64,000 bases of DNA, taken from positions 1,719,414-1,783,413 of the forward strand of contig CM055097.1 of the NCBI GenBank assembly GCA_029204225.1. Direction: 5' to 3'. The notes under the pieces were generated by a model. That model saw only the letters and a program-made list of their open reading frames with translations. It made no database searches and was not told the origin of the DNA. This stretch comes from Diphasiastrum complanatum. Lineage: Eukaryota > Streptophyta > Lycopodiopsida > Lycopodiales > Lycopodiaceae. Shown here piece by piece: positions 6,702 through 62,560 of the stretch. A program made the translations under genes and the position numbers. The stretch's first letter is position 1; every line of letters begins with the position of its first letter.

Positions 6702-6722
6702 TTGATACCAATATGTCTCTCA

Positions 6723-7546
6723 TTTAGATGTGCATAGTTTCTCTCATGTATCTAATGGAGGTGCAAAGGTGTGTGTATCATTTAAAGATGATCATTCAAG
6801 ATATGCTTGGATCTATCTTTTGCCTATGAAGAGTATGGTGTTTGATTCCTTTGTGAAGTTCAAAACTCTAGCTGAAAATCAACTTACCACTAAGATCAAA
6901 GTATTAAGATGTGATAATGGAGGAGAGTACATCTCCAATAAGATGATAGAGTTTTGTAAATCTAATGACATTAAGAGGGAGTTAACTTGTCCTTATACCC
7001 CTCAACAAAATGGAGTGGCCGAGAGAGAAAATAGATCTCTTTATGAGTGTGCTAAGGCCTTGAGGCTAGATGTCTCTCTTCCAAAACCATTTTGGGGTGA
7101 AGCCATTACATGTTCTAATTTTTTGTGTAATAGGTTTCCAAACAAAGCCATCAGAGGGATCACATCATATGAAGCTCTATATGGTAAGAGGCTGAATTTC
7201 AAAGATTTGAAAATCTTTAAATCTCCTTGCTATGTTCACCAATCTTTGGAAACAAGGCAAAAGGATGATGCTACATCACACAAAGGGATATAGAGTCTTC
7301 AATCCCATCACTAAAAAAATCATAGTGATTAGAGATGTTTTATTTGATGAAGGACATGGTTCTCAAGTGAATGAAAGTGCGTGTAATCATCTTGATTCCA
7401 AGGATATTGCTAGGATTGAGGAGGAGCAATCAAATGATGAAGATCTTGAGGATCCGCCTCAAGACTCGAGAGCTCCAAGGAGGTCTTCAAGGGCAAGGGC
7501 CGAGCCATCAAGGCTCACATATGCTGCAATAGAGGTTCATTTATGA
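6723..7546 (+). pseudogene. Ty1/copia integrase remnant
   Basis: The frame 6730-7293 shows the copia integrase core: a DDHSRYAWIYLL segment, CDNGGEYIS with the second catalytic Asp, and PYTPQQNGVAERENRS with the catalytic Glu. It continues into the NRFPNKAIRGITSYEAL linker. A frame change near 7235-7290 shifts to a second frame through 7546, carrying the VFNPITKKIIVIRDVLFDE and SRLTYAAIE linker that normally precedes the RT. The first catalytic Asp region and everything downstream of the linker are missing. It resembles the integrase at 26 kb. Confidence 0.85.
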
Positions 7547-20491: not shown

Positions 20492-21465
20492 TCTGAAGAT
20501 CTAGTTGATGATTTTATTGATGAGGTCACTAGTGACTACACATCGAATAATGTGGAGGTTATGCATATTCCTATGTCTCATATATCCACTCACTCCACCA
20601 AACTTGACATTGGTCCTGCTTGCATGGATTTTGATCATCCCATAGTGTCATCACACATAGATTGTATCCAATCCACATAAATCATACAGATTCTTCTATC
20701 TTACCTACTCCATTAAAAAAAAGAACACGACCTGGACGTATTTTGACAAGATTTGAAAACGAACAAAGTCTTTTACGTACTATCGACTTGTCCAAAAATG
20801 TTTTAAATTCGTTGACCGAGTCTTCCCTTCATCCTCATATACATGCATTAGTTAAGCCATTTGATAGAAAGAAATCTTTATGTTGGCTTGATACGGTACC
20901 ACTACACCTATGTGGGACATCATTTTCATATTGGGGCCATATGTACATAATCAAGTCTAGTGAGCAATTTCCTAATGCCGAATTAGGTTTATTTTCCTTG
21001 ACTAGCATTGATGTCCCTTTGAATAGTGTTGTCACAGTAATGCCATATGCCAGACCTCAATACAATTGGGGTGATTGGCATGCTCTATGTCGCCACCAAT
21101 GGAGAATACAAATATATGGTTTAAATTCCAATGCTTGTTCTTTGGAAGAGAGGCACATGCAAGGAAAAAGAGTTTCAAAAGCACATCGTATGTACATCGA
21201 TGGGCGTCCAAAAATACATGGAAACATCGCTGCATATATAAATAGTTCTATTTGTCACCCTTCATTAACTAATTTTGACTTTGAAGAATGCACCAATGGA
21301 AAAGAAGATTATTTCCCTAGACATGTGAATGCTACATATGTAATGGTTTGTGCGATCAGACCTAATAAATGTGGTGAAGAACTATTCATCAACTATAGCC
21401 TCAATCGTCCTCTACCAAGATGTGTACAAAAAGTTTTGAGCCAAGCACAACCATGTGCATTGTAG
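20492..21465 (+). CDS. SET-domain protein, probably partial or frame-disrupted
   Basis: The main frame is open from 20635 to the stop at 21465. Its C-terminal ~150 residues have SET-domain features: ELGLFSLTSIDVPLNSVVTV near the domain start, HGNIAAYINSS at the position of the conserved N-(H/S) pseudoknot strand, and CGEELFINYSL, equivalent to the GEEL..(D/N)Y motif of lysine methyltransferases. The Asn is kept, while the usual NHSC is reduced to INSS. Upstream, 20492-20670 is coding-like in another frame (acidic EDLVDDFIDEVTSDYTSN), one base out of register, so a frameshift or unseen intron lies near 20640-20670. The main frame has no ATG before about residue 94, which is too late for a full domain. 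It could be a SET gene copy carried or truncated by nearby retroelements, or an exon of a spliced gene. Activity is uncertain. Confidence 0.6.
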
Positions 21466-25555: not shown

Positions 25556-27017
25556 TTATTGTTATTCAAAAGACTTTGCCAAGTTTGATGGATCTTCAAG
25601 AGATCTTGATCAATGAAGAATATAGGCTTCAAACAAGAGCTGGATCTACATCGCCACTTCAAGAGGATGCTATGTTCACAAAGGGAAAACCAAAAGTAAG
25701 TGGTATAAAGGGTAAGATCAAGTTTATGCTTCTTCAAGTGGCAAAAAGAAGGACAGATCAAAGCTCAAGTGCTTCTATTGTGGCATCAAAGGACACTTTG
25801 CAATTGAGTGCTACAAGAAGAAGAGAGATCAAGGAGACAAGCAAGGTAATCTAACTCTTGATGAGGATGGTTTGGATGTTCAAGATGCAAATGATGATGC
25901 TTTTGTGATGTCTTCATGTATGCTTGCTAATGATGGAGATCTAGATCCTTGGTGGATTGATAGTGGAGCAAGTTCACACATGACCTTTCACAAAGAGTAC
26001 TTCACTTCTTTGTTGGCATATGGAGATGACAAGAGGGTGATCTACACGGCCAATGATGGTGAGTGTTCAATCAAAGGGATTGGCACAATTCCTATTTCTC
26101 TCTCTACAAATAGGAATGTTCATTTGGAGGATGTCTTGTTTATTCCATCTATTACCAAGAGTTTACTCAGTGTGAACCAAATGCTAAGTAAAGGCCTCAA
26201 GGTGGAGTTTGATGGAGATGCTTGTTTGATCAAAAGGAAGGATGTCTTGATTGGAAAAGGTAAAAGGCAAGGGAAATTGTTCAAACTAGATGCTTGTGTT
26301 ATTGCTAACCAAGTTGGATGTGTTGCAAGGCAGCAAATTTCTATTCAAGAGGTTTGGCACAAAAGGATGGGACACCTCAACTTCAAGTCATTGGAGGTAA
26401 TGGCAAGGAAGAAGGTTGTGATTGGTCTTCCAAGTTCCTTAAGTAGTGTCAAGCATGTTTGTGAGTCTTGCGCTTTCTCTAAGTCAGATAGACTACCTTA
26501 TACTAGATCTATATCTAGATCTACAAAGCCTTTTCAGCTTGTACATTCGGATATTCATGGATTTAATACAATTAGCAATAGTGGAGCTAAGATGTATGTA
26601 ACATTCATTGATGATTTTAGTAGATTTTGTTGGATCTATCTACTAAAGAGCAAGGATGAAGTGTATGATGTCTTTGTCAAGTTCAAGAATGCAAGGGAGA
26701 ACCAATTTTTCACAAAGATCAAGTGCTTGAGAGGTGACAATGGTGGTGAGTACATATCTAACAAGCTCAAGGCGTTTTGTGTTGAGCATGGGATCAAGAG
26801 GGAGTATACAACATCAAGGACCTCACAACAAAATGGAGTGGCTGAAAGGAAGAATAGGACTTTATGTGAAAGTGCTATAGCTATGAGGTTAAGTGCTAAT
26901 CTTGACAAACCATATTGGGATCAAACTTTGTTGTGTGCCAATTTCTTGTGCAATAGGTGGCAGAGTGCTATTTTTGATGGAAGGACATCAAGAGGAGGCC
27001 GAGTGTCAACTTTCTAA
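25556..27017 (+). pseudogene. copia gag C-terminus, protease and integrase
   Basis: Gag sequence enters at IQKTLPSLM and reaches a zinc-knuckle region (CFYCGIKGHFAIEC) that is out of frame with the ORF in front of it, so a frameshift lies between about 25670 and 25860. From 25872 a 381-codon frame holds WWIDSGASSHMTF (aspartic protease DSG active site), the H..H..C..C pre-integrase zinc region ending CESCAFSKSDRLP, and the integrase core with LVHSDIHGF, RGDNGGEYIS and QQNGVAERKNRT, that is, all three acidic residues of the DDE triad. The frame breaks near 26960 (CNRWQSAIFDG) and stops at 27017. The gene is closely related to the gag-pol at 60.3-61.8 kb. Confidence 0.88.
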
Positions 27018-27115
27018 GAACCTTTGGATGCACATGCTATGTCAACATTACTCTTGATGATAGGACCAAGGAGAATCCATCTTCAAGAAGAGATATTTTT
27101 GCTGGATATAGTGAG

Positions 27116-28656
27116 GTGAGTAAAGCCTATAAGGTTTACATTCCTTCTACTAAGAAAGTGATTGTTGGTAGAGATGTCATTTTTGATGAGGGGAACATTC
27201 CAAAGGTGTCTTCAAGCATGATTGATGGCAGAGTGGATGGATCTAACATTCTTGATGTTGATGAGAAGGATCCTACTTTGGATGGTGGTGATGATGGACC
27301 TTCATCAAGTCAAAAGCCAAGGAGAACATCAAGAGAAAGACAAGTACCTTCAAGGCTCACATATGATCAAAAGGGTAAGCAAGTAGTTTCTGGAAACTAT
27401 GTTGCTTTCCTAACCTCTTTGGGTGACACTACAAGTGTAGATCAATCAAGGAAAGAAGAGGAGTGGATCCAAGCAATGGATCTTGAGTATCAAGCTCTTA
27501 TGAAGTGTGGAACATCTTTTGGAGGATCTTCTTGTGTACATGGAGCTATGCAAGTGGATGGATTTTATCTTGCTGTAAAGTCAAGTATTGGATCTGGAAA
27601 ACAAAGTTTTTTCAATGTTTTTGATGGTCAAGTTGAAGATCAAGAGGTTGATCTCAAAGGGCTTCAACTAGTCAAAAGGGAAGTTGGCAATTTGGAGCTA
27701 GTCAAGAGCATCAAAGGAGAGGTAATTGGAAAAGGCGTTATGGATATGTTTTTACAGCATATTGAATACTCAAGTAAGGTCAAAGGAGCAGTAAGGAAGT
27801 GTTGTTCAGGTTTACTTTACTTGTTCTATCTCATGTTTGAGCAATTTCATGTGGATGTGTGCAAATTGTCAAGATATGGTAAAACTAGCTACATTGGTGA
27901 TTTGATGTTGGATTTGTACTAGCATTATTGGCTGATTTTGCTGATGGAAATGAAGCTATTGGAGGCTCATTATGTCACTCATTCATGGTCAAGTCATCAA
28001 GGCTTGATGGCATCTCATGGCAAGATGGAGATGGAAGCTCATTCATGGAGTATCATGGTGGATACAAGGCAACAAAGGACAAAGGAGGAGGAGACTTGCA
28101 AGCAAATGTTGATCACTCACATTTATTGTTTGTTTGCTATATTTTTCCAAAGAGTTCAGAGTTGGAAACATGGTGGAATCATTTCATTTACATTCTATTT
28201 GATTCTTCATGTTCTAGTCACATTTTGACATGTAGAATTGATGTAAAAAATAGTGAAGCATCCCAAGTGGACACTATTCTTTATATCAATTATGGTTGTT
28301 TCTATTTTGAGCATTACATGATCATTGAAAGGAGATATATCCTTAGGAAGAATATCATTCTTATGATGGATCAAAGTTCTATTGTCAAAAACTATGCAAG
28401 AAGCAAGCATATTGAGATACAATATCATTTTGTGAGGGAGCAAGTCATTGCAAAGGAGGTGGAGCTTCAACATGTGTCTTCAAGGGAATGTGTAGCTGAT
28501 ATCTTCACCAAAGCATTGGGAAAAGACTTGTTCATGAAGCATAGGACTTCACTTGGAGTGTTATCAAAGTCTATGCTAAAACTAGTTGAAGAGGGAGTGT
28601 GGAAGATTCAACTAGTTTCATCACATTTTGCTATATTTTCATATTTGGCATATTGA
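27116..28656 (+). pseudogene. copia linker and RNase H tail flanking an unrelated ~850-bp insert
   Basis: The frame from 27116 carries the copia post-integrase linker (KVIVGRDVIFDEG, RRTSRERQVPSRLTYDQ) and the conserved EEWIQAMDLEYQALMKCGT that normally leads into the RT. From about 27512 the protein no longer resembles RT: no KWVYK, no YGLKQ and no YVDD. Instead it continues open to 27922, and a second frame runs 27928-28656. RNase H reappears only at about 28365 with DQSSIVKNYARSKHIEIQYH and ends with TKALGKDLFMKHRTSLGV, just before the right LTR. The intervening sequence is unrecognised and has unusually long open frames for debris. It may be captured sequence. Confidence 0.7.
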
Positions 28657-31821: not shown

Positions 31822-32340
31822 TTAATGACACGTTTGGCTTTGACACATACGATTCCTCAACAATGCTTTGAAGCACTGGTAATGAAAATGCTTCTTGCTT
31901 CTCAACCTCTTAGAAAAGCAACTAAACATTTGATCAATTTGATCGTGGGTATGCCCTACCAACAAAAATCCTATTTTTACTTTTTTGAAAAAAAAATTCT
32001 CCACTAGCATAGACAAGTATGCCAAAACAGTTTGATTTTTATTTTCCCTAACAGTGTTGTCAAGCTGCAAATAAAGTATTTCTGAAAGATTTTCACCAAA
32101 TTCGCAAATTATCTTATGTACAATGTTGATCGTCAAATTTGGATCATTTCGAACATTGGGATAATTAAAAAAGATCTTGGACTCCAAAGTGCCATTAAAC
32201 ACAAGTGCTCCAACGAGATGAACCTGAATAGAATCTGCCTCGTTCAAATTTTTGGGCACTCTGACAAAATGAGGCAACATTGTTTTCTTCTGATCCATGC
32301 CATCAATAACAAGTCCCAGATATTTTTGTGGACATTCCAA
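31822..32340 (-). pseudogene. DUF7869-like ORF (transposon-associated family)
   Basis: The 172-codon minus-strand frame contains HLVGALVFNGTLESKIFFN, LSEILYLQLDNTVRENKNQT and FLLVGHTHDQIDQMFS. The LQLDN...ENKN and VGHTH..(I/V)DQMFS motifs recall large plant and animal proteins carrying the DUF7869 domain, often linked to DNA-transposon-like genes. Here the domain ends shortly afterwards (RNRMCQSQTCH) and no N-terminal zinc or transposase part is joined. A short coding-like piece at 32839-32582 lies upstream on the same strand. It is probably a decayed fragment; the family call is from memory. Confidence 0.5.
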
Positions 32341-32581
32341 ACATTTCTTTCGAGCTTGGCCAACTTTTGTCTTTCAACTGTTTAACATCTATTACAAATA
32401 AAAATATACGACCATCAAATGCTTCTTATGCTTCACCGATGTTTGTCTCATGATCTTTCGTGCCCTTTTATGCCCTATGTATATGCCTTGCACACCCTAT
32501 ACATGCATATTAAATGCCCTTTGTGTACAAGTCCACCCTTTACATAAAGTGTAATTATCATGCATTAGATCAATTGCACAT

Positions 32582-36428: not shown

Positions 36429-39400
36429 CTACCAGTAATCCCCACATGAACATATACCGTCTACAAAGTGATGAAATCTGTTAGCGTCTCTTACGACCAA
36501 CGACCTCCCAGCAATCCTAGAAATATATTTGCTGGCTGTGTGGCAGTCTTCACACACTCTCAGATTCTTAAATATATGGAGTTGACTTCCAGACGGGGTG
36601 CTGATGAGTCCAAATGCTATGGCCAGTCGCTCACTGTGCTGACAAGATGAATGACCTCCCTCCTCCCTGTCACGTATTTCAAAGCGTTTATCTGGCACAT
36701 ACCCTGCTTTTTTCATCTGCAAAGATAACTTCCTCAGTTCTTCTTGTATTTCTATGATCCGAGGATGCTCAGTGTCTGCTACAAAAAACCTATGAACTTC
36801 ACCATTAACCTCAATCCAGGTACACCCTGCCTCTTTGTGCAAATGTCTTTCCTTCCGCAACTTCTGAACCTTGATTCTGCTCTCCCAATTCCCGGCAGCA
36901 GCATAAACATTTGATAGCAACACATAACAGGAGGCATTATGAGGATCAAGTTCAAGAACTTGCAGTGCAATACGCTCTCCCATCTCCACATTGCCATGAA
37001 CTCGGCAAGCACCCAGTAAGGCCATCCATATAGGTATCTCAGGCTGATGAGCCATCCTATTGATCATGTCCTCTGCCTCATCCAAATAGCCTCCTCGACC
37101 AAGAAGGTCGACCATGCAGCTATAGTGCCCCACTGTTGTTGCAACATCAAAAACCGGACTCATGAGTTCAAAGTAGCAATGACCTTCATCAACAAAACCC
37201 GTATGACTACATGCTGATAAAAGGGTGACAAAAGTTGCACTATCCATCTGCACTTGTTTACCCATTTCATCGCAAAGTCGGAGTGCTTGCTTCCCGAGGC
37301 CATGAATGCCATACCCATCAAGCATGGCATTCCAGGCTGTTAATGTGAGGATTGGCATACTGTTGAACACCCTTTCTGCTTCATCTATCCTCCCACATTT
37401 ACTGTACATTTCTATCAATGAACTAGCCACAAGAACGTCAGATTCACAGCCATATTGAATGACCTTCAAATGGACATAGCGTCCCTCTTTAATTGCTGCA
37501 AGGCTAGCGCATACATGAAGAACGCTTACAAAAGTGACTGCATCTCCCGCTACTCCTGCCTGCTGCATCAATTTGAATAATTTCAATGCGCTTTTCTCCT
37601 CCCCAAGTTTGGAATGTCCCAAAAGGATGGCACTCCAAGAAACCAAATCCTGTGTTGGCATATTATTGAATACTCTGCATGCATCCACTATGCTGCCACA
37701 ATGTGCATACATTTCACACAAACAACTCCCAACAAAAAAGTCTGACTTATACTTGCTCCGACTTATCAGCATGTGAGTATATGTGCCAAAATCCAGTTCT
37801 AACAAACGAGCACATGCATTAAGGACATATACGTAGGTAGTATTGTCTGACTCGACCTTTTCACGCTGCATCTGTTGAAATAACACCAAAGCTTTTTCTT
37901 CTTGACTGTTCTTTACACAAGCTCCTATCATGGCATTCCAAGAAACAGTATTGCAATCTGGCATGCTATGAAAAACTTGAGTTGCATCCTCTAGGCTTCC
38001 ACATTTGCTGTACATGTCAATGAGAGAACTCCCAACAAAAACATCAGACACATAACGTTTTTCAATGACCTGTGCATGTACGCACCTGCCTTCTTCCAAT
38101 GCCTCTGTGCTAGCACATGCATTGAGGACAGCCATGAAGGTCACCCTGTCTGGATTCACCCGTTCCAATTGCATCTGTGAAAACAAGCTCACTGCCTTCT
38201 CTCCTTGATTACAGTCCGTATATCCAACAATCATTGAACTCCAAGAGACCACATTGCGGGTACTCATGGTTTGAAAAACTTCGATTGCATCCTCTATGCT
38301 ACCACATTTGTTGTACATATCAACAAGACAACTCCCAACAAAAATATCATACTCAAAACCGTATCTAATGACATGTGCGTGAATATGCCTCCCCTCTTCA
38401 AGGGCCGCAGAGCTTGTACATGCACTGAGGACATTGACAAATGTGATGATGTCTGGCTGCACATCTTCTCGCTGCATCTGAAAAAATAGTTGCAATGCCT
38501 TACTTCCTTGGCCACACTTGACGTAACCCATAATCATGGTACTCCAACAGACAACATCAGGTATGGGCATATTCTTGAATACTTTACATGCATCCTCTAA
38601 ACTCCCACACTTGCTGTACATGTCAATCAGGGAATTGCAAACAAAGATATCAGACTTGCTTCCACTTTCCATGACATCTCTATGTATCCTTCTGCCTATT
38701 TCCAACTCTAACAAACCAGTGCATGCCTTGAGGACCTGAACATAAGTGAAACTGTCAGGGTAAATATCCTCCTTTTGCATTTCCTCCCAACGTTCCAGGA
38801 CCTGTCTGTGTTGCCCAAATTTCATGAATCTTGTCAACATAGTGTTCCAGGAGAACACACTTCTCTGCACCGTACCTGGAAGCAAACTTACCACCTTCGC
38901 CTTTACCCAGTCAGGTGTAGACCTTCCATTAATCCACAGAGCAACATCGGTCTCTTTGTGCTTGAAGTCTGGGTATTTTGCTGTTCTCTGGTTGCATATT
39001 TTTTTGAAACAAATAATCAGACAAAACGATTTGCAGCCTATCAAAAGGAAGTATCATTCTAATAAGTACAGTGATCAATGATCATTAAATACGTCATCTT
39101 AAAATTGCTTGTAACTATCAAGAGCTCACCTTGTCAAATCTGTGATCCCACCACTTTGAAGGTTCTGAAAAAAATTGTCGCCAACGTTTTTCTGGAACAA
39201 TTTGCTTGCACATCATAAACTACAAAATAATACAATACGACTCTGAAAAACTGTGCATTCTCATTCATTTTGCAGGTCTTCCACATAATTTCCAATATTC
39301 CACCCAAGTTGAATCTCTGCAGTTCCACAATCCAATAAACCAAATGGAATTGTGATAAATGTTTAGAAAACAAAGTAAAAAAATCTTGATAAAGACCTTG

Positions 39401-41055
39401 TTCTGCTTCAGAGCTTGCATAGGTGTCCCATCTTCTTGTCACTCGAGAAGGGTCCAGCAAAGTGTCGACCCACAATGGTGGCATCTTATACCTCTTCTCG
39501 GAATTTGGGCACCAAAAATCCTTTTGTGGGGAGCTCTGCCACCAGTATCAACACGAATCAAGTGATACCAATCTCAAATTTACGCAAACCTTTAACTGCC
39601 ATCATTTTACATCAAAACACAGAAAAATAAAAAATAAAAACCTATTTAATGTGCACTTGAAAGAAAAAGCCAGTCCAACAGATGATAACATCATGAATCA
39701 ATACAATTACAAAGTAATGCAAAAGCAAAGAGGCAAAATCTTGTTTCTTCCAGAAAAGTATCACTTACTCATTTTACCAGGTTAGACACAAAGTCATGAA
39801 GCATTTCCATGTCATGCATTTTGTATGAGCATATCTTCTCTCAGAGTAACAAAATAAACCCAATGCAACTTAAATCAAGAAGTGGTAATTCCGTTCTTGT
39901 CTCTCCAGGCACAAAGAAAGACCACCATGCCGCTTCAGTGGCTGATGGTTTTTGATGAGGCAAAGTCTTTAAAGGCTTTGCTTACTCATTCCTTTCTAAG
40001 AATGCTAAAAGTGGCCCAGTTATCAACTGCGAACAGAAAAGCTGTAGCTTGTGACAGTAGCCAAAAGGTTGGGTTGAATTAACCATTGGACGAAACCATT
40101 TTGGAAGGAATCGGCCTTTTCAGAATCGGAAGAATTGATGGTTCAGGCGTTTCATAAAAGAATCAGTCAATTTTTCTAAAAGCCAATTCTTTTACAAAAA
40201 AATGTTAAAAAAACTAGAAAACACCGATTTGTCTTGCATTTCGATAGTTTACTTCTTAGTACTACTTAAATATTACAGAATCATCACTACAATGGCCAAT
40301 CTCAAGTGCTGACTCTTGAGTGCACATAATAATTGACTAAATTTGTCAGAATTCAAACCCAAGTATAACCACAATTCAAAACTGAAAATGACCATGATTC
40401 AAACTTAGAAGTTAGAAATAATCATGCTAGATATTTAACATTAAAAACAAGATTCAAACTCAAATATAACCCCGATTCATTATCCATAATAGAGTCACAT
40501 AAATAAGCCACGCAACACATTTAGATTCCCCCCCCCCCCTCTCTCTCTCTCTCAAACGCTATGCTGCAGCAATGTGGCTGCTCCTTGGACCTCAATAGCC
40601 GCAGTTGAAATGCCTAATAAGACTTTTAACCAACTAGTAAGGGAGAGCATTTCAGGTCTTTATGTATCACTTGTGAGAGGCACTGAAAATTCATGTAGTC
40701 ATGCTGGCAGAACCACATTTTGGCTGATGAGAACCAGTTTTTGGCATTTTATGTTACTCCACTCTGAGTGCCCTCACAATAACCTCAAGATCAGCATGGC
40801 ATCTGATGGCAAGGTGTTTCATTCCTTTACAGTAGATAATGAAAGTACATATAAATCAAACTTCCTGTTCTTCTGCAGTCATGCCCAATCAAACTAAGGA
40901 ATGAAACATCTCATGCCGTCACAGATAAGAAAAATGGTTACTTACAGAATGAATTTTTTCATGATCTCTTAAATTGCTCACCTTGTCAAATCTGTTGCTC
41001 CACTGTTGCAAATAATCCTGAGCAGATTTCAGCAGAGATACATTCTTCTTCTGAC
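36429..41055 (-). CDS. PLS-class PPR protein with DYW deaminase and N-terminal OSB-type PDF motifs (5' end unresolved)
   Basis: Exons in transcription order are 41055-40982, 39535-39397, 39191-39130 and 38987-36429, phases compatible, GT-AG introns of 1446, 205 and 142 bases; 943 aa visible. The first three exons and the start of the fourth give two PDF motifs, as in plant organellar single-stranded-DNA-binding (OSB) proteins: a divergent one (YLQQWSNRFDK then MPPLWVD) and a good one (WRQFFSEPSKWWDHRFDK then RTAKYPDFKHKETDVALWI). The last exon continues through 18 PPR motifs (five P-L-S triplets, then P2-L2-S2), E1, E2 and a DYW domain with HSE, CEDCH and terminal CSCGDYW, all zinc and catalytic residues present. 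Such proteins bind organellar transcripts and deaminate C to U. The big exon has no ATG before its first PPR motif, so translation must begin upstream; no OB-fold exon was found. No stop or frameshift is seen. Confidence 0.85.
40528..40553. repeat. C-run followed by CT microsatellite
   Basis: About eleven C followed by CT repeats, inside the first visible intron of the PDF-PPR gene. Confidence 0.9.
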
Positions 41056-43464: not shown

Positions 43465-44620
43465 ACTTCATGTACTAATCAAATCATCCACGTACAACAC
43501 AATGAACACTATCTCTGAATCTTGCCTTAGAATGTAAAGATCAGGATCAGCATCACTCTTTACCATTCCCCTTCGCTTAAAGTGTTCATCTATCTATGCA
43601 CGAGTACCACGCCCGTGGTGATTGCTTCAATCCATAAATAGCTTTGTTGAGCTTACAAACAAGGTGCTCTCTCCCTGGTTCAATAAATCCTTGAGGTTGT
43701 ACTAAGTACACCTCTTCATCCAGCACTCCATTAAGAATAGCATATTTAACATCCATTTGCTGGATCTTCCAACCATAGAAAGCAGAAATAGCAATGACAG
43801 AACGTATAGTTACCATCTTAGCTACGGGTGCGAAGGTTTCCTCAAAATCAATACCTTCCTGCTGCTCAAATCCTCTCACAACCAACCGTGCTTTGTATTT
43901 GTTGAGTTGCTTGTATATCCATTTGCAAGTGATAGGTGTCTTACCATCAGTTAGCTCAACCAAGTTCCACGTCCTATTTTTTGATATAGCTTCCATTTTT
44001 GTTTCCATAGCTTCACGCCACTCCTCGTGCTCCTTTGCTTTATCAAAAGTTTTTGGTTCTTGAGCCTTGAGCACAGAACCCATTAGGGCTAGATTCATCT
44101 CTAATCTTGCAGGAGGTTTTCGATTTCTACTTGATCTTCTAGGCTCTCCCTACTCACTAGATTCGGGAGTATCTCCCTTCTTTGCACCATCTGTGACTGA
44201 TAAGTACCATTTAGGTACTCTCTTGGGAATTTCAGCATTGGGCTTACCTTTGTCCAATGGATTTTCTGTATCAAAATCCACTTCTTTCTTGACCTGTACT
44301 TTCGCTCCCTCATCAAAAGGTTCAGTGATTACTTCAGATTGTTCACCTCGGCCCATCTCGTCAAATGTAGCATCTCTAGAAATTACAGGCTTCTATGCAT
44401 TTGTATGCCTTGGCCTTCACATCATATCCAAGGAAAATACACTTGATAGCTTTTGCATCCAATTTCCTTCGTTTCTCATCAGGAATATGAGCATAAGCAT
44501 CACAACCAAATACTCTCAAATGAGAAATACTAGGTTTCTTTCCAGTAACAACTTCATGAGGTGTCTTACCTTCCACGGATTTTGTAGGACACCGATTCCA
44601 AGAGACTACTGGCCCTAGTT
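43465..44620 (-). pseudogene. Ty1/copia integrase-to-RT remnant, truncated at YVDD and interrupted by an LTR
   Basis: On the minus strand from 44620 the order is: NRCPTKSVEGKTPHEVVTGK and FGCDAYAHIP (post-integrase linker), a RRSSRNRKPP-like acidic/basic linker, EEWREAMETKMEAI, CKWIYKQLNKYKARLVVRGF, ETFAPVAKM, QQMDVKYAILNG, LNKAIYGLKQSPRAWY, and finally IVLYVDDLIS near 43475, where it ends. Frame changes occur near 44380 and 44150 and a stop follows AWYSCIDR. The integrase side is cut exactly at 44621, where a plus-strand LTR begins, so that LTR inserted into or recombined with this copy. Confidence 0.85.
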
Positions 44621-47363: not shown

Positions 47364-50300
47364 TTAATGTGGATCCGTGAATGCCTTGATCTTCAAACTA
47401 AGCAATGCACAAAACTTTTTGTGTGCATTAACACTTAATGCCTTTATAAATATATCTACAACCATGTCCTGCATTCTGCAGTACGTTAAGCTCACCTCCT
47501 TGTTGAGAACCTTGCCCCTGATGTAGTGATATCTCATTTCAATGTGCTTACTCCTAGAGTGAAATCCAGGGTTGGCCGATAAGACAATAACACTCTGATT
47601 ATCACAAAATAAAATTGTAGGGCTGTACTGATACAGATTAATGTCTGACAGTAAATTTCTTAACCAAAATGCTTCTTTAATAGATTGAGAAGCAGCAATG
47701 TATTCTGCTTCTTTAGAAGAGAGAGCGATAGAGGTTTGCATACGATTGTTCCATGAGATAGGACCGCCGTTGAAGAAGAATGTAAATCCAGATGTGCACT
47801 TACAATTGTCTACATCTCCTCCCCAGCTTGCATCAGAATATCCATTGAGCTGATGAAGATTGTCGTTGCTGACATCTCCATAATATATGCACTGGTCCAT
47901 GGTAGCTTGAATATACCTCATGACTCTTATGAGAGCCTTCCAATGGGTAATGTCAGGATTGGCCATATATTGGCTGAGTGAGCTTACAACAAAAGAAATG
48001 TCTGGTCTTGTACAGACCATTGCGTACATGAGATATCCAAATATCGATCGATAAGGATACTCTCTCATCTGCTCCTCTTTGTGCTTGGTCTGGGGACATT
48101 GGTCCTTTGACAAATGCAGGCCTGGATCCATCAGTGAGTGAGCTAACTTACAATTCATTAGATTGTATATGTTAAGAACATTGTGAAGATACCTTTGTTG
48201 AGTGATATAAATCAATCGTCTCGCTCTGTCTCTATGGATATGAATGCCCATACAAAAGTGAGCTTCATCTAGATCAGTCATGTCAAACTCTAAAAACATC
48301 ATCTGCTTAGAATTCGGTATTGTTGCTGAAAAGTAATGTATCATCCACATATAAGGTGATGATAATGAAAGATTGCTGCACTGACTTGGAATAGATGTTG
48401 CAATCAATAGTGCTTAATTGGAAACCTTGTTCAATAAGGAATGTGTTGATCCTTTGAAACCAAGCTCTGGCAAACTGTTTCAAGCCGTAAAAAGCTTTGT
48501 GGAGTTTACAGACATGATTCTTCATACCATCCAGAACGTATCCTTCAGGCTGGATCATGTAGATGTCTTCTTGTATAACTCCATTTAGATAAGCTATTTG
48601 TACATCAAGTTGATGTACTTCGAGGTCGGCCGCTGCATCATAAGACAAGAGGGCTCGGATCGAGGGCTCAGATCGAACTACTGGACTAAAAGTCTCCCTG
48701 TAGTTGACGTTGGGGATCTGAGTGAATCCTTGTGCTACTAGTCTTGCCTTCCTTCGATCAATTGTTCCATTGGCATTGTACTTGATCTTGAAGATCCATT
48801 TGCAATCAATGGTATTGCAGCCAATAGGAGCTTCGACTAGTGACCATGTCAGGTTCTTGATAAGAGAGGAATACTCTCTGTCCATAGCTTCTCTCCAAAG
48901 ATTAGAGTCTGGTTGGCTGAGTGCCTCTTCGACTGTCGTCGGTTCCCGTATCAAAATACATGCAGACTCAAGAGTGTACCTTGTGGGTTGTGTGCACACT
49001 CGGCTTGATTTTCTAGGTGAAAGTGACTGATGAACCATTCTTGGGACTTGTTGCTGGGTACAGCAACGTCTTCGTCTGATTCGCTATCAAATAGTGGGTC
49101 GACAATGGACATGCCTAAACCAGAAGCTCGGATTGTCATGTCAATGGCAGGTAATGAAGGTTCTTCTAGAGCAATATCCTTGGCTTTGATGTTGACAAAC
49201 TGATCCTCGATAAAGACTATATCCCGGCTATACAAGATTTGTTGGGTATCAGGCCCATACAGCTTGTATATATTATCAGATGAAGTATATCCAATCATGA
49301 TGGTCTTGAGACCTTGGAAGTCCAATTTCTCCTCTTGTCTTTTGGGATCTACGCGTAGGCAACGCATCCGAACACTCTTAGGTTCTTCACAGAAGGCTTA
49401 GAGCCTATCCACACCTCGTGGGGTGTTTTGCCTGAGAGGGCCTTGGTCGAACATCTGTTCCGGACGTAAGCTACAATGGAGACAGCTTCAACCCAGAATG
49501 TTCTGGGCAGCAATGCATGCGCTAGCATACATTTGGCTAATTCAACCAGGGTACGGTTCTTCCTCTCGGCTAAGCCATTAGATTGAGGACTGTAAGGAGT
49601 GATGAATTGCTGCTCAATGCCTTGCTTTGGCAGTACTCCTTAAACTTGGTAGAGATATATTCTCCACCATTCTCTGATCTTAGGGCCTTGATCGTCCTTC
49701 CAGTCTCCTTTTTTACATGCTCCTTGAAGATTCTGAAGCAATTGAAGGCTTCTAATTTCTTCTTTATAAAGTACACCATAGTCCTTCTGGAAAATTCATC
49801 AATAAAAGCTATAAAATACTTTGCATTCTTCAACGAAGGATTTTTCATCAGGCCACAAATGTCTGAATGTACAATGTCTAACAATCCTCTAGCAATATTT
49901 GATGGCTTGATTTAAATGGTTTCCTAGTCTGTTTACCAACTAGACAATCTTGATGGACAAGTAACTCGACTTTATCACGAGGATAGTCGAGATCAAGAAC
50001 AATAGATTGTCTAGACATTTGTTGTACAGCAACATGATTCAAGTGACCAAGTCTATAATGCAAAAATAAACTTTTATTTGCATGAATAGAAGTACTAAGC
50101 GCCTGACTAGAGACAGAAAAGCAATGACTTAATTTATACAAGTATCCGTGCCTCTTTCCAAGTGCTAGGATCTTGCCTGTCCTATCAACTACTTTGCACT
50201 GATCACATTCAAATTTTACTCTATGTCCTAGATCTATGATTCTGCTTATAGAAAGCAGATTCATAGATAAATTTGGTACATATAGGACTTTAGAGAGTAG

Positions 50301-51360
50301 CTTAGATTGATCATTTGCAAAACTCAATCTCACAGTACCTTCACCTTTAAGCTTGTGCGCTATTATCACCAAGGTGAACATATTTATTGGTACCGTAAGG
50401 TGTATAGGACTCAAACAAGCCAATGAGGCTGGTCATGTGTTGAGTGGCTCTGGAATCCAGGAACCAAGAACTGTCACTGGATGCTTCTTGATGGCTGGTC
50501 ATGAAGGCATCATGATCTGCTTCTTGAATAGGCTGTGGAGCATCTGTAAATGCATTTTTCACTTGATTCGACTGCCCCTTGCTATTGTTCTTTGCTTGCA
50601 GTATTCGGCAGTCTTTAATTTCGTGGTTGTTTCGCTTGCAGTATCTGCAGAACAGCTTCTTCTTCGTCTGCACATTTGACTATTCTTTGTGTTGTGCTGA
50701 TTTCTGGTCTGGCTTTGATTGCTTTAGGCCTTTCTTCTTCTGTCGCTGCTTAGTCATGCTCTTGTTGGTGTACAAGGCATGAGAATCAGCTGAGGAACTT
50801 GAGGCTTCGTTCCTTCGCGTGTCTTTCTACAACAACATAGTAATGACTCTTGAAAGAGTCAGAGACTAGATGTGTCATGATGATCATCACCCATCTGTCG
50901 TATGAGCTTGGCAATATTGTAAGCAGTTGCATCACTGCGTCTTGATCATCTATGACAGATCCGACCATTTGCTTCAGCAGGTTCTTGAATTGGTTGATGT
51001 AATCTGCAAGGAATCACCATTCGCCATCTTGAGGGATTAAAATTTCTTCCTAAGATGTAGCTTGGAAGCTATATTTCGCACTTCGTATAGTGTGCTCAAG
51101 ATGTCCCAGACTTCTTTTGATGGCCTTGGATACATGGCCGATCTGGGTATCCGTAATGTTGAGGATGATCAACGCGAAAGCCTTTCCATACTTCAGCTTC
51201 CATCTAGCGATTGTTGCTTCGGGTTTCCCTTTTGCACCTGCAACAACGTCATATAATTTTTTAGCCATTAGTACAGTTTTCATCTTAAATTTTCACAGAT
51301 GTTAATTGGCTCCATCAAGCTTGTCCATGATAGGACTGGCTCTCCCTTGGAAATCCATGT
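47364..51360 (-). pseudogene. nearly full-length Ty1/copia gag-pol, inactive
   Basis: On the minus strand: a gag start at about 51360-51280 (IMDKLDGAN; MAKKLYDVVAG) with stops, gag body 50968-50786, zinc knuckle CRYCKRNNHEIKDC near 50640, protease WFLDSRATQHMTS where the DSG active site is DSR, pre-integrase zinc region to 49878, integrase with HSDICGL, IDEFSRR and RSENGGEYIS, then a frame change near 49575 into [10 protein letters not shown] and the linker to 48951. RT covers 49038-48310 with WSLVEAPIGC, HKAFYGLKQFARAWF and TLYVDDTLLF intact. After another frame change RNase H covers 48300-47364 (GYSDASWGGD, ALSSKEAEYIA, SKHIEMRYHYIRG). At least four frame disruptions plus the protease change make it non-functional. 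Primer site and LTRs flank it. Confidence 0.92.
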
Positions 51361-53184: not shown

Positions 53185-55837
53185 ATGACAAACATGGGAG
53201 AGCCCATTTTGAGTGAAAATAACAAATTGGACGGGATTTCTAACTATGCAGTGTGGAAATTCAAAATGAAAAACATACTGATAGAGAAGAAACTATGGGA
53301 TGTCGTCACAGGTGATGAGAGAAGACCACCAAATGAAGCGGACATTAAAGTGTTCGACAGGAAGGCGAGGAGAGCTTTGACCTTCATCAACTTGTCAGTG
53401 AAAGACCACATCATTACCCACATAAGTGATGCCATTACACCTAGACAGGCATGGGATGTGCTAAAGGAGCAGTTTGAGACGTCAAATCCATCAAGGATTA
53501 TGTTTTTGTAGTCAAAGCTGAATAGTGCCCGAATGGAACAAGGAGAGCACATTCAGACTTACATGACCAGAATCAAGACAATGAGAGATGAACTGCATTC
53601 CATTGGTGAGCGCATACGTGATGTTGAGCTAGTGCACAATGCATTGTGTGGCATTGCAGAACCTTATCAGATGTTTGTGAGTGGAATAGCATCAAGAGAA
53701 AGATTATCAACCTTTGATTATTTCATAGGAATCTTGATGCAGGAGGAGCAATGATGAGAGATGGTGAAAGCTAGACGTCAAAATACTAACGATCAAGCAC
53801 TTGCGACATGCCAAAAACAAGGCAAAGGCAAGGGTAAGAAGAAGTCTAAGCAGCAATTTGCCAAGACTCAGGAGGATGAGGGTAGAAAGACCAAGAAGAA
53901 GGAAAAATGCTTCCATTGCGGCAAAAAGGGCCATTGGAAAAGCGAGTGTCGAAAATTCTTGGTGGAATCAGGCAAGGGAAAACCAAAACAAGCAGGTAAC
54001 CTTGTCGACGAAGGTGAAGTTGAAGACTCTAGCATCTTCATACTAAGATCTAATAATGGAGTGAGTACAAGTCTACTGACTTCAATGATCTTTGTGATGA
54101 ATGTGGGATCAAAAGGCAATTTATGCAAGCTCATACTCCTGAACTCAATGGTGTAGCTGAGCGCAATAATCGTACGATTGTGAAAAGTGCCAGATCTATG
54201 CTAGTTGAGATGAAGCTGCCAAAAGATTCTTGGTCAGAAGCATGCAGTAACACATTTTATCTTCAAAATAGAAGTCCTACCATTGCCATACCTAAGATAA
54301 CACCTGAGGAGGCATTCACGAAGAAGAAGCCAAAGGTGAACCACTTGTGAATCTTTGGATATAAGGCCTTTGTAAACATTCCTAAGGAAGAAAGAAGTAA
54401 GCTTGATGTAAAAGTTATCATATTCTTAGAATATGATTATCGTGTAAAGGGCTATAGATGTTTTGATCCAGTGGAGAACAAAATACATGTTAGCTGTGCT
54501 TTGATGAATCTAAGATGTACGAAGATGAGGATGTTGAGAAGACGGATACATCTAGCGGGAAAGATGGTACAGAGAAAATTCCTCTTGATGATGATCCATT
54601 TGTTGACTTTCCTAGTGATGGACATGTGGATACATCTCATGATACTACTACTCAACCTCAAGAGATAGGTTGGAGAGGTAGAGATAAACCTTTTGGTGCA
54701 AAAAGGATTGAAGTTGCACATGACAAACACAAGGAGAAGGATGTATCGTGGGATACATTTTCACTAGGAAGCTGATCACCTGACATGAAGCTCACTAAGT
54801 GGTTTGAGAGACTGATGGAGAGCCGCGACATGGATGACTTTCCAAGATCATCTAGCCAGGGAGAGCTACGAAAATCAACAAGAGAGAACACACAACCTGA
54901 TAGGTATGAGACAAATTATGCTCTCTTATCTAGCATTATGCAAAGCAAAGAACCTTCGACTTATGTTGAAGCGAAGATGATGGCATTTGGGGCAAGGCCA
55001 TGGAAGAAGAGATGGAGTCAATTGCTAAGCGTAGCACATGGGACTTAGTGGGACCACTAGTTGGCAAGAAACTCATTGGCTGTAAATGGGTATACAGGAC
55101 TAAGTACCATGCAGATGGAAGTATAGCAAAGCACAAATCAAGATTGGTAATCAAAGATTATGCACAAAGGCATCGACTATGAAAAGACCTTTGCACCAGT
55201 ATGTAAGTGGAATACTCTACGTCTACTGCTTTAGCTTCACATTTTGGTTGGCCTTTACATCAGATGGATGTGAAATTTGCTTTTCTACATGGTGAGTCAG
55301 AAGAAGAGGTGTTCATGGATCAACCTGAAGGCTTTATAGCGAAAGGATAGGAGAATATAGTATGTCACTTGAAGAAAGCACTTTATGGTCTCAAACAGGC
55401 ACCACATGCGTGGTACAGTAGGATTGATGCCTACTTTTGTTCTAAGGGGATGGTGAGAACACACTCTGATCCAAATCTTTATGTCTTATGCTTTGATGGT
55501 ATGGTTTCTTTGGTTGCTCTTTACGTTGATGACTTGATGAAATAATCAAGAGATGATAGATATGATAAAAAAAGATCCCATGGAACAATGCGAGATGACA
55601 GATCTCAACCTAATGCATTATTGCCTTGGAGTAGAGGTGTATAAAAAAGGATATGAGGTGGGTTTAACACAAGTGAAGTATGTCAGAGAGTTGCTGCATA
55701 GGTTCAGGTTGCAGGATTGCAAGCCAGTGAATGTAGAACAACTGATCAGACAAATCTTGATTCTACCAACAAAGCGCCCATTTTACTTGACAAAGGATGA
55801 GAAAGAAATGAACGCAAACTCGAAACATTTCTATTAG
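53185..55837 (+). pseudogene. Ty1/copia gag-pol with internal deletion
   Basis: Gag starts with ATG at 53185 (LDGISNYAVWKFKMKNILIE), with a stop at 53509, and continues to the zinc knuckle CFHCGKKGHWKSEC near 53910. At about 54060-54125 the sequence skips protease and most of the integrase and re-enters at HTPELNGVAERNNRTI. The linker is broken by stops, then RT pieces follow: [53 protein letters not shown] and LVALYVDDLM near 55530. The tail YCLGVEVYKKGYEVGLTQ runs to about 55790. Many stops and frame changes are present. No RNase H end is seen; LTR-like sequence follows directly. Confidence 0.88.
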
Positions 55838-59693: not shown

Positions 59694-60278
59694 TGGTATC
59701 AGAGCTATTGTGTTTAAGGTTATGAAAGTATCATTCACATTTATCAAAGATTTGGAGGAGTTACCAATGCTAGAGCATGCTAGATTGATTTCTACTCAAA
59801 AATCTCCATATGTAAAATTTATTTTTTGTAGGTCAAAACTCAATATAGGTTTATATATTTGATCAATTCCAATTTCACACTTGCTTTACTAGAATTATCC
59901 GATTTTTGGTGCATTAGGAAGGTCTCATTGGAGGCTACAAGATGATATATCAAGTTTTTAGAAATTGCATGTAGAATTTGAGATATTCAATTTTTTGTGA
60001 TTTTGTCAAAACCCTTATTTGATTGGATCTCTAGTTTGTGAGGTTACTGAACTTCATTTGAGTGTGTTTCAATCTTAGGAAGTGTCAAAAGTCATTAGAT
60101 TGAGGATAGATCATAGGTTGATCAAAATTCCATGATTCTATGTGTGGTATAAGTGCTATAAGAGAATTGTTGAGATTGTTTCAAATATTTGTGATTTCTT
60201 TTGAAAACATTTGTTGTTGTTAAAAGGAGTGCTTTGTGCATTGAAATAGGTTGAAAGAGAAGATCAGGTCATTGTTGC

Positions 60279-61784
60279 ATGGCAACCTCAATTGGAGTCA
60301 TGTTGGAAGCCAATGATAGGCTTACCTCAAGTAACTACTCATTGTGGAAATTGAGGATGAAATCACTTCTTGAGATGAATGATGTTTTGGATATTGTTGT
60401 AGGTTTGGAGGAGAGACCAGCAACACAACAAGATCAAGTGAGGTATGATAAGAGGGCCAATAAGGCTCTACACATGATCAAGATGAATGTTACCAATGAG
60501 CTTCTCAAGGAAGTTGGTAAGTGTACTTCATCTAAGGATGCTTGGGATTCATTGAAGAAGCTTTATGAATCCAAGTCCACTTCTAGAGTGTTGACTCTAA
60601 AAACGCAAATCTTTTCTTGTTTGTAAAATAATATAGAAAGTCCAAGTACTTTTGTTCTGAGGATGAAAGCATTGAATGATGAGTTGGCTTGCATTGATGA
60701 GAGCATTAAGGAAGGAGAGCGTGTTCAAGTGATTCTTAATGGATTGTTGAATGCTCATGCTAACATTGTTCAAAGTATTGCTATTCAAAAGACTTTGCCA
60801 AGTTTGATGTATCTTCAAGAGATCTTGATTAATGAAGAATATAGGCTTCAAGCAAGAGGTGGATCTACATCGACCACTTCAAAAGGATGCTATGTTCACA
60901 AAGGGCAAATTCAAGGGCAAAACCAAAAGTAAGTGGTCTAAAGGGAAAGATCAAGTGGATGCTTCTTCAAGTGGCAAAAAGAAGGATAGATCAAATCTCA
61001 AGTGCTTCTATTGTGGCATCAAAGGACACTTTGCAAGTGAGTGCTACAAAAAGAAGAGAGATCAAAGAGTCAAGCAAGGTAATCTTACTCTTGATGAGGA
61101 TGGTTTGGATGTTCAGATGCAAATGATGATGCTTTATTCATGTATGCTTGCTAATGATGGAGATCTAGATCTTTGGTGGATTGATAGTGGAGCAACTTCA
61201 CACATGACTTTTCACAAAGGGTACTTCACTTATTTGTTGGCATATGGAGATGACAAGAGGGTGATCTACACGGCCAATGATGGTGAGTGTGCAATTAAAG
61301 GGATTGGCACAATTCATATTTCACTCTTGACAAATAAGAATGTTCATTTGGAGGATGTCTTGTTTATTCCATCTATTACCAAGAATTTGTTTAGTGTGAG
61401 TCAAATGCTAAGTAAAGGCCTCAAGGTTGAGATTGATGGAGATGCTTGTATGATCAAAAGGAAGGATATCTTGATTGGAAAAGGTAAAAGGCAAGGGAAG
61501 TTGTTCAAACTAGATGCTTGTATTATTGCTAACCAAGTTGGATGTGTTGCAAGAGAGCAAATACATATTCAAGAGGTTTGGCATAGAAGGATGGTACACC
61601 TCAACTTCAACTCATTGGAGGTAATGGCTAGAAAGAAGGTTGTGATAGGTCTTCCAAGTTTCTTAAGTGGCATCAATCATGTTTGTGAGTCTTGTGCCTT
61701 GTCTAAGTCACATAGACTACCTTATACTAGATCTACAAAGCCTTTTCAACTTGTACATTCGGATATTCATGGATTCACTACAAT
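60279..61784 (+). pseudogene. Ty1/copia gag, protease and start of integrase, truncated
   Basis: Gag begins MATSIGVMLEANDRLTSSNY at 60279 and has a UBN2-type body (KLRMKSLLEMNDVLDIVVGL, SSKDAWDSLKKLYES), with one stop at 60624. A frame change near 60880 leads into the zinc knuckle CFYCGIKGHFASEC. Protease WWIDSGATSHMTF is intact. The pre-integrase zinc region (H..H, CESCALSKSHRLP) and the first integrase Asp (LVHSDIHGF) are present. At about 61784, after GFTTI, homology to the 26-kb copy ends abruptly and LTR-like sequence of another element begins. This is the least decayed gag in the window. Confidence 0.9.
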
Positions 61785-62560
61785 TCCAAGAATATTCTTC
61801 CAAACCGATTCTTAATAAGATTATGAGTTCCGAATTCTACAATCAACCAACTAATTAAAGACTATTATAACATTCATCTTTAACAATATCAACTTTTTAC
61901 AATCTCCTAGAACAACATCTAGAGATTTCAAAGTTTTACGGAATTCCCAAAATTCAGTTTATCATTCTTGGCATCATTAGGATCCGGTATCCAATTGAGC
62001 TCACTAGGATATTATCACTAATGAATAAAGTCTATTTCTCAACTGAGAAATACTTATCCAAGAAATCAATATGTAAAGACCACTAGGGACAATCCCCTAA
62101 GATGAGGATAGGAAAAACACAAGAGAGATTGTGGAGCAAAACCACCCAACCAAACCTAGATCCCTTCTGGAGAATCCTCCTGGATCTAGCCCCCAAGCCA
62201 TGACAATGTGACAGCAAGAGGAGAAGAGCTCATCAGGTAACCTAGACCAAGTCGTCGATGGGATAATCTCTACCTCAATATATAGAGAGTAGGATCCAGT
62301 GCATGAACACATGCAATCCCCATGCAAGTCAACTAAAAATAGGTTACAACTCTACATGCATACCTCCTGCCTATATCAGTCACACGCACATGCACTACTC
62401 CATATGTCTCAATTAGAGTGTCTGGGTCCTCTCAAGGTCATTAGTCACCAACTGGCCTTGACTTGGAATTAAATCTAGGCGTGACCAATAATCTCGAACA
62501 CTGGAGGGCCGACTACCATATTAGAACTATTCTAGGTCCTTAACCAAATATGGCCGTAAC
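61784..62560 (-). repeat. gypsy-type LTR, minus orientation, cutting the copia integrase
   Basis: The right end reads CCGTAACA|TTCTTCCTCTCTTAAACGAT. On the minus strand this is a gypsy pol tail (...AGAATCG..., purine tract AAGAGAGGAAGA) followed by an LTR starting TGTTACGG. A TATA-like CTATATATTG on the minus strand lies near 62275. The first ~465 bases are repeated at 63538-64000. The left edge abuts copia integrase sequence without a recognisable terminal TG. Confidence 0.65.

Follow-up and report, generated by a model that had tools for sequence, protein, structure and literature searches.

OSB-type PDF motifs joined in frame to PPR-DYW editing factors in a gene family of Diphasiastrum complanatum

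The window analysed here, a stretch of 64 kb on contig C6 of the Diphasiastrum complanatum genome (1.74 Gb in 5176 contigs), carries on its minus strand a gene in which a motif of OSB type is joined in frame to a pentatricopeptide repeat (PPR) protein with a complete DYW deaminase domain. As in the sequence-only reading of this stretch that preceded our work, we take the motif to be the PDF motif, the hallmark of OSB proteins. The PDF-PPR-DYW fusion is supported by profile matches, splice sites, selection and many paralogues, and its anatomy, with one to three OSB-type PDF motifs followed by a PLS-type PPR array, an E motif and a DYW deaminase, can be regarded as nearly certain. On balance, the explanation that we favour for the whole is a large family of nuclear genes which would encode organellar editing factors and in which the PDF motif would act as a clamp on RNA.

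Four exons of the window gene were located (Table 1), and their earlier placement was borne out: AG precedes all four, GT follows the first three, the last closes with a TAG stop, and joined in one shared frame they encode 943 residues, a length that still lacks the first coding exon, which was not located in the window. The last exon is open over its whole length, from the second half of the PDF motif through a linker, the PPR array and the E motif to the DYW deaminase, so that one PDF half and the repeats do stand in a single unbroken exon, as the sequence-only reading had held. Pfam found PPR repeats in this exon with PPR_2 in 10 stretches (E 3.8e-94) and with PPR in 12, and the array counted by eye gave the same number of motifs as before. 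The E_motif family matched with 61.8 bits (cut-off 27.3, E 7.4e-17), Eplus_motif with 20.3 bits, under its cut-off of 24, and DYW_deaminase with 122.2 bits (E 8e-36); HSE, CEDC and the C-terminal DYW can be read directly in the latter domain, in agreement with its claimed completeness. Among structures in the Protein Data Bank (PDB), the closest match by sequence to the PPR part was the synthetic PPR-DYW protein 9kfx, with further matches to the DYW-domain entries 7o4e and 7w86. By these comparisons, the PPR part of the window gene resembles a regular DYW editing factor of PLS type.

For the PDF motif, the check by hidden Markov models suggested earlier gave a divided result, as Pfam returned 0 families for the joined PDF exons of the window gene, and the PDB weak matches alone (E 0.59 or worse), whereas profiles of our own recognised both intact halves. 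These profiles were built for each half from 30 best-match loci, with the window gene and duplicates removed, which left 19 distinct rows per half. The first-half profile matches at 39183-39130 with 30.0 bits (E 1.1e-10) and the second-half profile at 38984-38886 with 58.3 bits (E 1.3e-19), and the earlier assignment for 39191-39130 and 38987-38870 is thus upheld by profiles from which the window gene was excluded. In the rest of the 64 kb there was no PDF match at E<1 (next-best E 1.5, -2.7 bits), and the top score in 20 shuffled windows was -1.0 bits. Chance similarity was rejected on this test with its shuffles, together with the reverse-strand and shuffled controls given below. Further upstream lies another pair of exons in which neither half reaches E<1 with the PDF profiles; the two-exon layout and the residues W..NRFDK and PPLWVDTLLD, judged by eye, make it probable that this pair is a second, decayed PDF unit.

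Genome-wide, the PDF query from the window gene returned 488 loose candidates, of which the best 150 were scored (weakest E 2.2e-6), and two further PDF queries returned 598 and 494 candidates, again with the best 150 of each scored; the three sets share members, not every candidate in them is a confirmed PDF, and copies on small contigs are among them. A DYW search gave 472 candidates, the best 150 of which were scored. Open frames of at least 300 amino acids hold 71 of the 150 scored PDF matches. When the two lists of best 150 were compared, a same-strand DYW match lay less than 8 kb downstream of 40 of the 150 PDF matches, against 1 of 150 in the control geometry with the DYW match upstream or on the opposite strand. 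All 30 best-match PDF loci that were fetched, near-identical copies included (20 distinct second halves, the window gene counted), have both halves in order, and 29 of them, the window gene among these, continue into a frame that matches its PPR array (E of about 3e-98 or lower); the sole miss, L034, has an open frame of 50 amino acids.

Starting from the DYW side, 40 genes were drawn at random (seed 7) and the first 20 read. The pool consisted of 119 of the 150 best-scoring DYW matches, those on contigs C1-C23, with lower-scoring genes and small contigs outside it, and the sample favours well-conserved DYW domains and holds close relatives. PDF units were present upstream on the same strand in 14 of the 20 genes, compared with 0/20 on the reverse strand and 0/20 after shuffling, and the single odd fusion pictured in the sequence-only reading is therefore too small a view. 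Three of the 14 (L042, L047 and L055) had contributed rows to the profile used, and 11 had not. The number of units varies, with one intact by profile in the window gene and up to three in the paralogue L046 (C23:35830138-35835436), a DYW gene in which they stand in tandem, each with both halves.

Across 49 PDF units from 44 of 50 loci, a set including near-copies and counting three genes twice, the intron within the motif has its donor directly after one and the same K codon (AAG/GT) in 48, the exception being one unit of L050. Nei-Gojobori estimates on 32 distinct PDF sequences, for which 256 of 496 pairs were usable (dS above 0.1), gave medians of 0.26 for the nonsynonymous rate (dN), 1.47 for the synonymous rate (dS) and 0.18 for dN/dS, and, as far as such codon comparisons go, purifying selection on the PDF motif overall is shown. 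Seven columns are identical in all 32 distinct units, namely the first W, the D of WWD, the closing K, the P, D and H of PDFKHK and the P of PxW. Both results speak against the PDF motif being a passenger, in which case the fusion would mainly have supplied the PPR array with a ready-made leader and the opening exons of a gene for an organelle-targeted protein, and the motif would stay as a spacer or folding cap. It is true that the PDF exons occupy the region ahead of the array in which any targeting leader has to be encoded as well, that candidate, unproven leader frames lie upstream in some paralogues, that the upstream unit of the window gene looks decayed, an impression without profile support, and that dN/dS among close pairs rises to 0.61; we nevertheless consider a passenger role rather unlikely.

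Two subclasses of the fusion can be told apart. In the first, to which the window gene belongs, a single exon runs from the PDF motif into the PPR array, the frame being open through the linker and 300 codons for 21 of the 32 distinct PDF sequences. In the second, an intron of 102-169 bases parts the two, and the join is in frame in 9/9 sampled genes, with the donor G/GTAT and the acceptor ATGCAG/G. A glutamine 14 positions past the W of PxW is found in 20/23 units of the shared-exon subclass and 8/9 of the intron subclass; in two of the four exceptions (L044 and L059) the register is shifted by one residue, in the other two (L038 and L039) the position holds E, and this Q is absent from both OSB-like exons described below. 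Because both subclasses share it, a single fusion before they split is suggested, and we infer that the join of PDF and PPR had one ancestral origin and was multiplied by repeated later copying. In a tree of the E-DYW part, 15 PDF rows fall in two supported groups, one of 6 rows (97/97) and one of 10 rows (100/100) that includes the PDF-less L058, which has a 111-residue frame only and clusters with a PDF gene, while 4 of the 6 PDF-less genes form a group of their own (97/96).

The same features bear on whether two adjoining genes were read as one, an OSB-like gene ending at the PDF motif, followed by a PPR-DYW gene that starts independently. Internal starts would be compatible with the evidence at hand, and a donor-like GTAAGT does occur inside the large exon. 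A separate OSB-like gene was nevertheless judged unlikely, and indeed we give this arrangement hardly any chance, from the motif and 300 PPR codons shared in one open exon, the lack of any stop between PDF and PPR in the window gene, the conserved linker and the in-frame splices of the other subclass. The GTAAGT itself is located at 38891-38886 (minus strand), within the last four aligned PDF residues (WVKAKV/GTAAGT); if used as a donor, it would drop everything after it from the message, and no acceptor was assigned to it.

In the literature on OSB proteins, these are defined by one to three PDF motifs (PMC4166229), the PDF motif of AtOSB1 is described as sufficient on its own for binding of single-stranded DNA (PMC6963530), AtOSB1 and AtOSB2 are said to favour single-stranded over double-stranded DNA or RNA, and a loss of OSB in the pteridophyte line is reported from a table of the same paper (both PMC4166229). 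A search of the whole D. complanatum genome for the SSB family gave 13 matches, 4 of which are ordinary SSB-type exons by eye. The other nine, on C4, C12, C13 and the small contig C1396, resemble OB-fold exons of OSB genes and are presumably of that kind. The OSB-like OB-fold exons are interrupted by long introns, and a joined pair of them is similar to PDB entries for SSB proteins (best 2fxq, E 8.5e-12). Some SSB-family matches contain in-frame stops (C14:47792226, C14:47961724 and C1:3848279) and one at C13:49246103 does not; introns or decay may be involved.

When the genome was queried with a hand-typed OSB PDF consensus, the top match was C13:6165202-6165315, about 33 kb downstream of the C13 OB-fold exons and on the same strand, and a further match lay at C4:14880790-14880894, about 12 kb downstream of the C4 OB-fold exons, likewise on the same strand; none was near the C12 OB exons among the best 150 listed. 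By eye, both PDF exons open at a splice acceptor at the same motif position as in the PPR fusions and reach a stop soon after the motif, and from order and strand we infer that the OB and PDF exons form one gene each on C13 and C4. A profile made from PPR-linked PDFs alone matches the two exons with 51.5 and 45.3 bits, and by this measure of similarity the motif of the fusion is shown to be akin to the PDF found in the genome's own OSB-like genes.

This kinship would suit a PDF motif that still prefers single-stranded DNA, as in OSB proteins, and anchors the editing factor at the organelle nucleoid or at the DNA strand displaced during transcription, with the result that nascent RNA is edited. 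The motif-defining residues are kept in the fusions, one profile scores the PDF exons of both kinds of gene, and the binding preference of AtOSB1 and AtOSB2 noted above points the same way. No OB fold of OSB type was found with the fusion, however, since 0/13 SSB matches in the genome are on contig C6, a result to be read with the low scores of the OSB-like exons (19.7-24.4 bits), with which a very divergent OB fold could escape; moreover, very many such proteins would presumably compete for the nucleoid. A DNA tether seems unlikely to us.

PPR arrays run along RNA with their N terminus towards the RNA 5' end. For the RNA clamp that we favour, the layout of the family would comprise a targeting leader (not located in the window gene), one to three PDF motifs, the PPR array, E and DYW, and the PDF motif would lie on the RNA immediately 5' of the specific site of the editing factor, because the front end of the array points to the 5' end. 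As a nonspecific single-strand clamp it would raise affinity and would hold the site unfolded for the DYW domain. Taken by itself, this role for the motif has about an even chance in our judgement. A part tied to the upkeep of organelle DNA appears to have been reused in RNA editing.

Several points weigh against such an explanation. The reported preference of AtOSB1 and AtOSB2 for single-stranded DNA over RNA, as given in PMC4166229, argues against a clamp on RNA, unless a change has occurred in the motif. The median dS of the PDF sequences is high and 240 of the 496 pairs were unusable, and, because among pairs with dS above 0 the 14 closest give dN/dS of 0.11-0.61, constraint in recent copies may be weaker or the estimates noisy. 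Conservation of the motif stems in part from the selection of loci by motif similarity, by which 21 of the 32 rows were found. Since 6 of the 20 sampled DYW genes (L048, L049, L053, L058, L060 and L061) have no PDF within 5 kb, the motif is not required for every editing factor. The E-DYW tree needs 3 label changes, with 11 of 18 inner branches open and an arbitrary root, and a single origin, argued from a short linker and this tree, is tentative. That one OSB-PPR fusion yielded most DYW editing factors of the lineage, with a physical link between editing and either organelle DNA or the transcripts emerging at the nucleoid, is in our view unlikely; if true, organelle RNA editing would run largely on proteins with a built-in single-stranded DNA motif.

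Table 1. Parts of the PDF-PPR-DYW gene in the window, listed in the direction of transcription.
Feature	Position	Strand	Details
Probable first half of decayed upstream PDF unit	40982..41055	-	SAQDYLQQWSNRFDK; AG before, AAG/GTGAGC after, in frame; PDF identity from layout and by eye
Probable second half of decayed upstream PDF unit	39397..39535	-	KDFWCPNSEKRYKMPPLWVDTLLDPSRV; AG and GT flanks, in frame; without profile support
First half of intact PDF motif	39130..39191	-	EKRWRQFFSEPSKWWDHRFDK; matched by profile (30.0 bits, E 1.1e-10); donor AAG/GTGAGC
Second half of intact PDF motif	38880..38987	-	RTAKYPDFKHKETDVALWINGRSTPDWVKAKVVSLL; matched by profile (58.3 bits, E 1.3e-19)
Linker PGTVQRS from PDF to PPR	38859..38879	-	Conserved in paralogues; Q in the same column in 28/32 distinct units
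PPR array, PLS type, about 18 motifs	36999..38858	-	Count by eye; Pfam PPR_2, PPR, PPR_1 and PPR_3
E motif	36810..36998	-	Pfam PF20431, residues 665-727 of P0001 (frame of last exon)
DYW deaminase domain ending in DYW	36432..36704	-	Pfam PF14432, residues 763-853 of P0001 (frame of last exon)
Whole last exon, PDF second half to TAG	36429..38987	-	Frame uninterrupted

Elsewhere in the window, an open frame of 276 amino acids at 20635-21465 on the plus strand has a SET domain (Pfam, 29.3 bits, cut-off 22.4), and one of 183 amino acids at 31822-32373 on the minus strand matches DUF7869 with 135.7 bits. Copia-like retroelement fragments were recognised by eye from open reading frames on both strands at 1746-2234, 6706-7293, 25716-28656, 43586-44149, 47364-50432, 53758-54156 and 60255-61815; the one at 53758-54156, the sole fragment checked with Pfam, has a zinc knuckle.

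The specificity of RNA editing is generally attributed to the PPR array together with its helpers. With a large family in which a second, nonspecific nucleic-acid-binding motif taken from DNA maintenance precedes the array, nature would provide a way to ask if editing is limited by affinity, by RNA unfolding or by nucleoid placement; the fusion also links two separate organelle gene families and may supply designers of editors with a naturally occurring component. Editing by moss PPR-DYW proteins in E. coli laboratory strains is reported (PMC6397227). No description of a PDF-PPR fusion was found in the literature searched, most subscription papers being outside its reach, and within it 'PDF motif' and 'pentatricopeptide' occur together in PMC6963530 only. 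The extra domains tabulated for moss PPR proteins in PMC9459714 are RRM, LAGLIDADG, SMR, NYN, CBS and SAP, with PDF not among them.

With the DYW subgroup of PLS-type PPR proteins, the organellar C-to-U editing factors, the fusion family shares the PPR array, the E motif and the complete DYW deaminase, and differs in having one to three PDF motifs ahead of the array. With OSB proteins it shares the PDF motif and the place of the intron before the second half of the motif, as seen in the two OSB-like genes, but no OB-fold domain was found with the fusion. For this reason, and by what was tested, the window protein would be classed with the PPR-DYW proteins, as one to which an OSB motif has been added, rather than with the OSB family. 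In the two OSB-like genes the exon stops shortly past the PDF motif, whereas in the window gene it continues into PPR-DYW.

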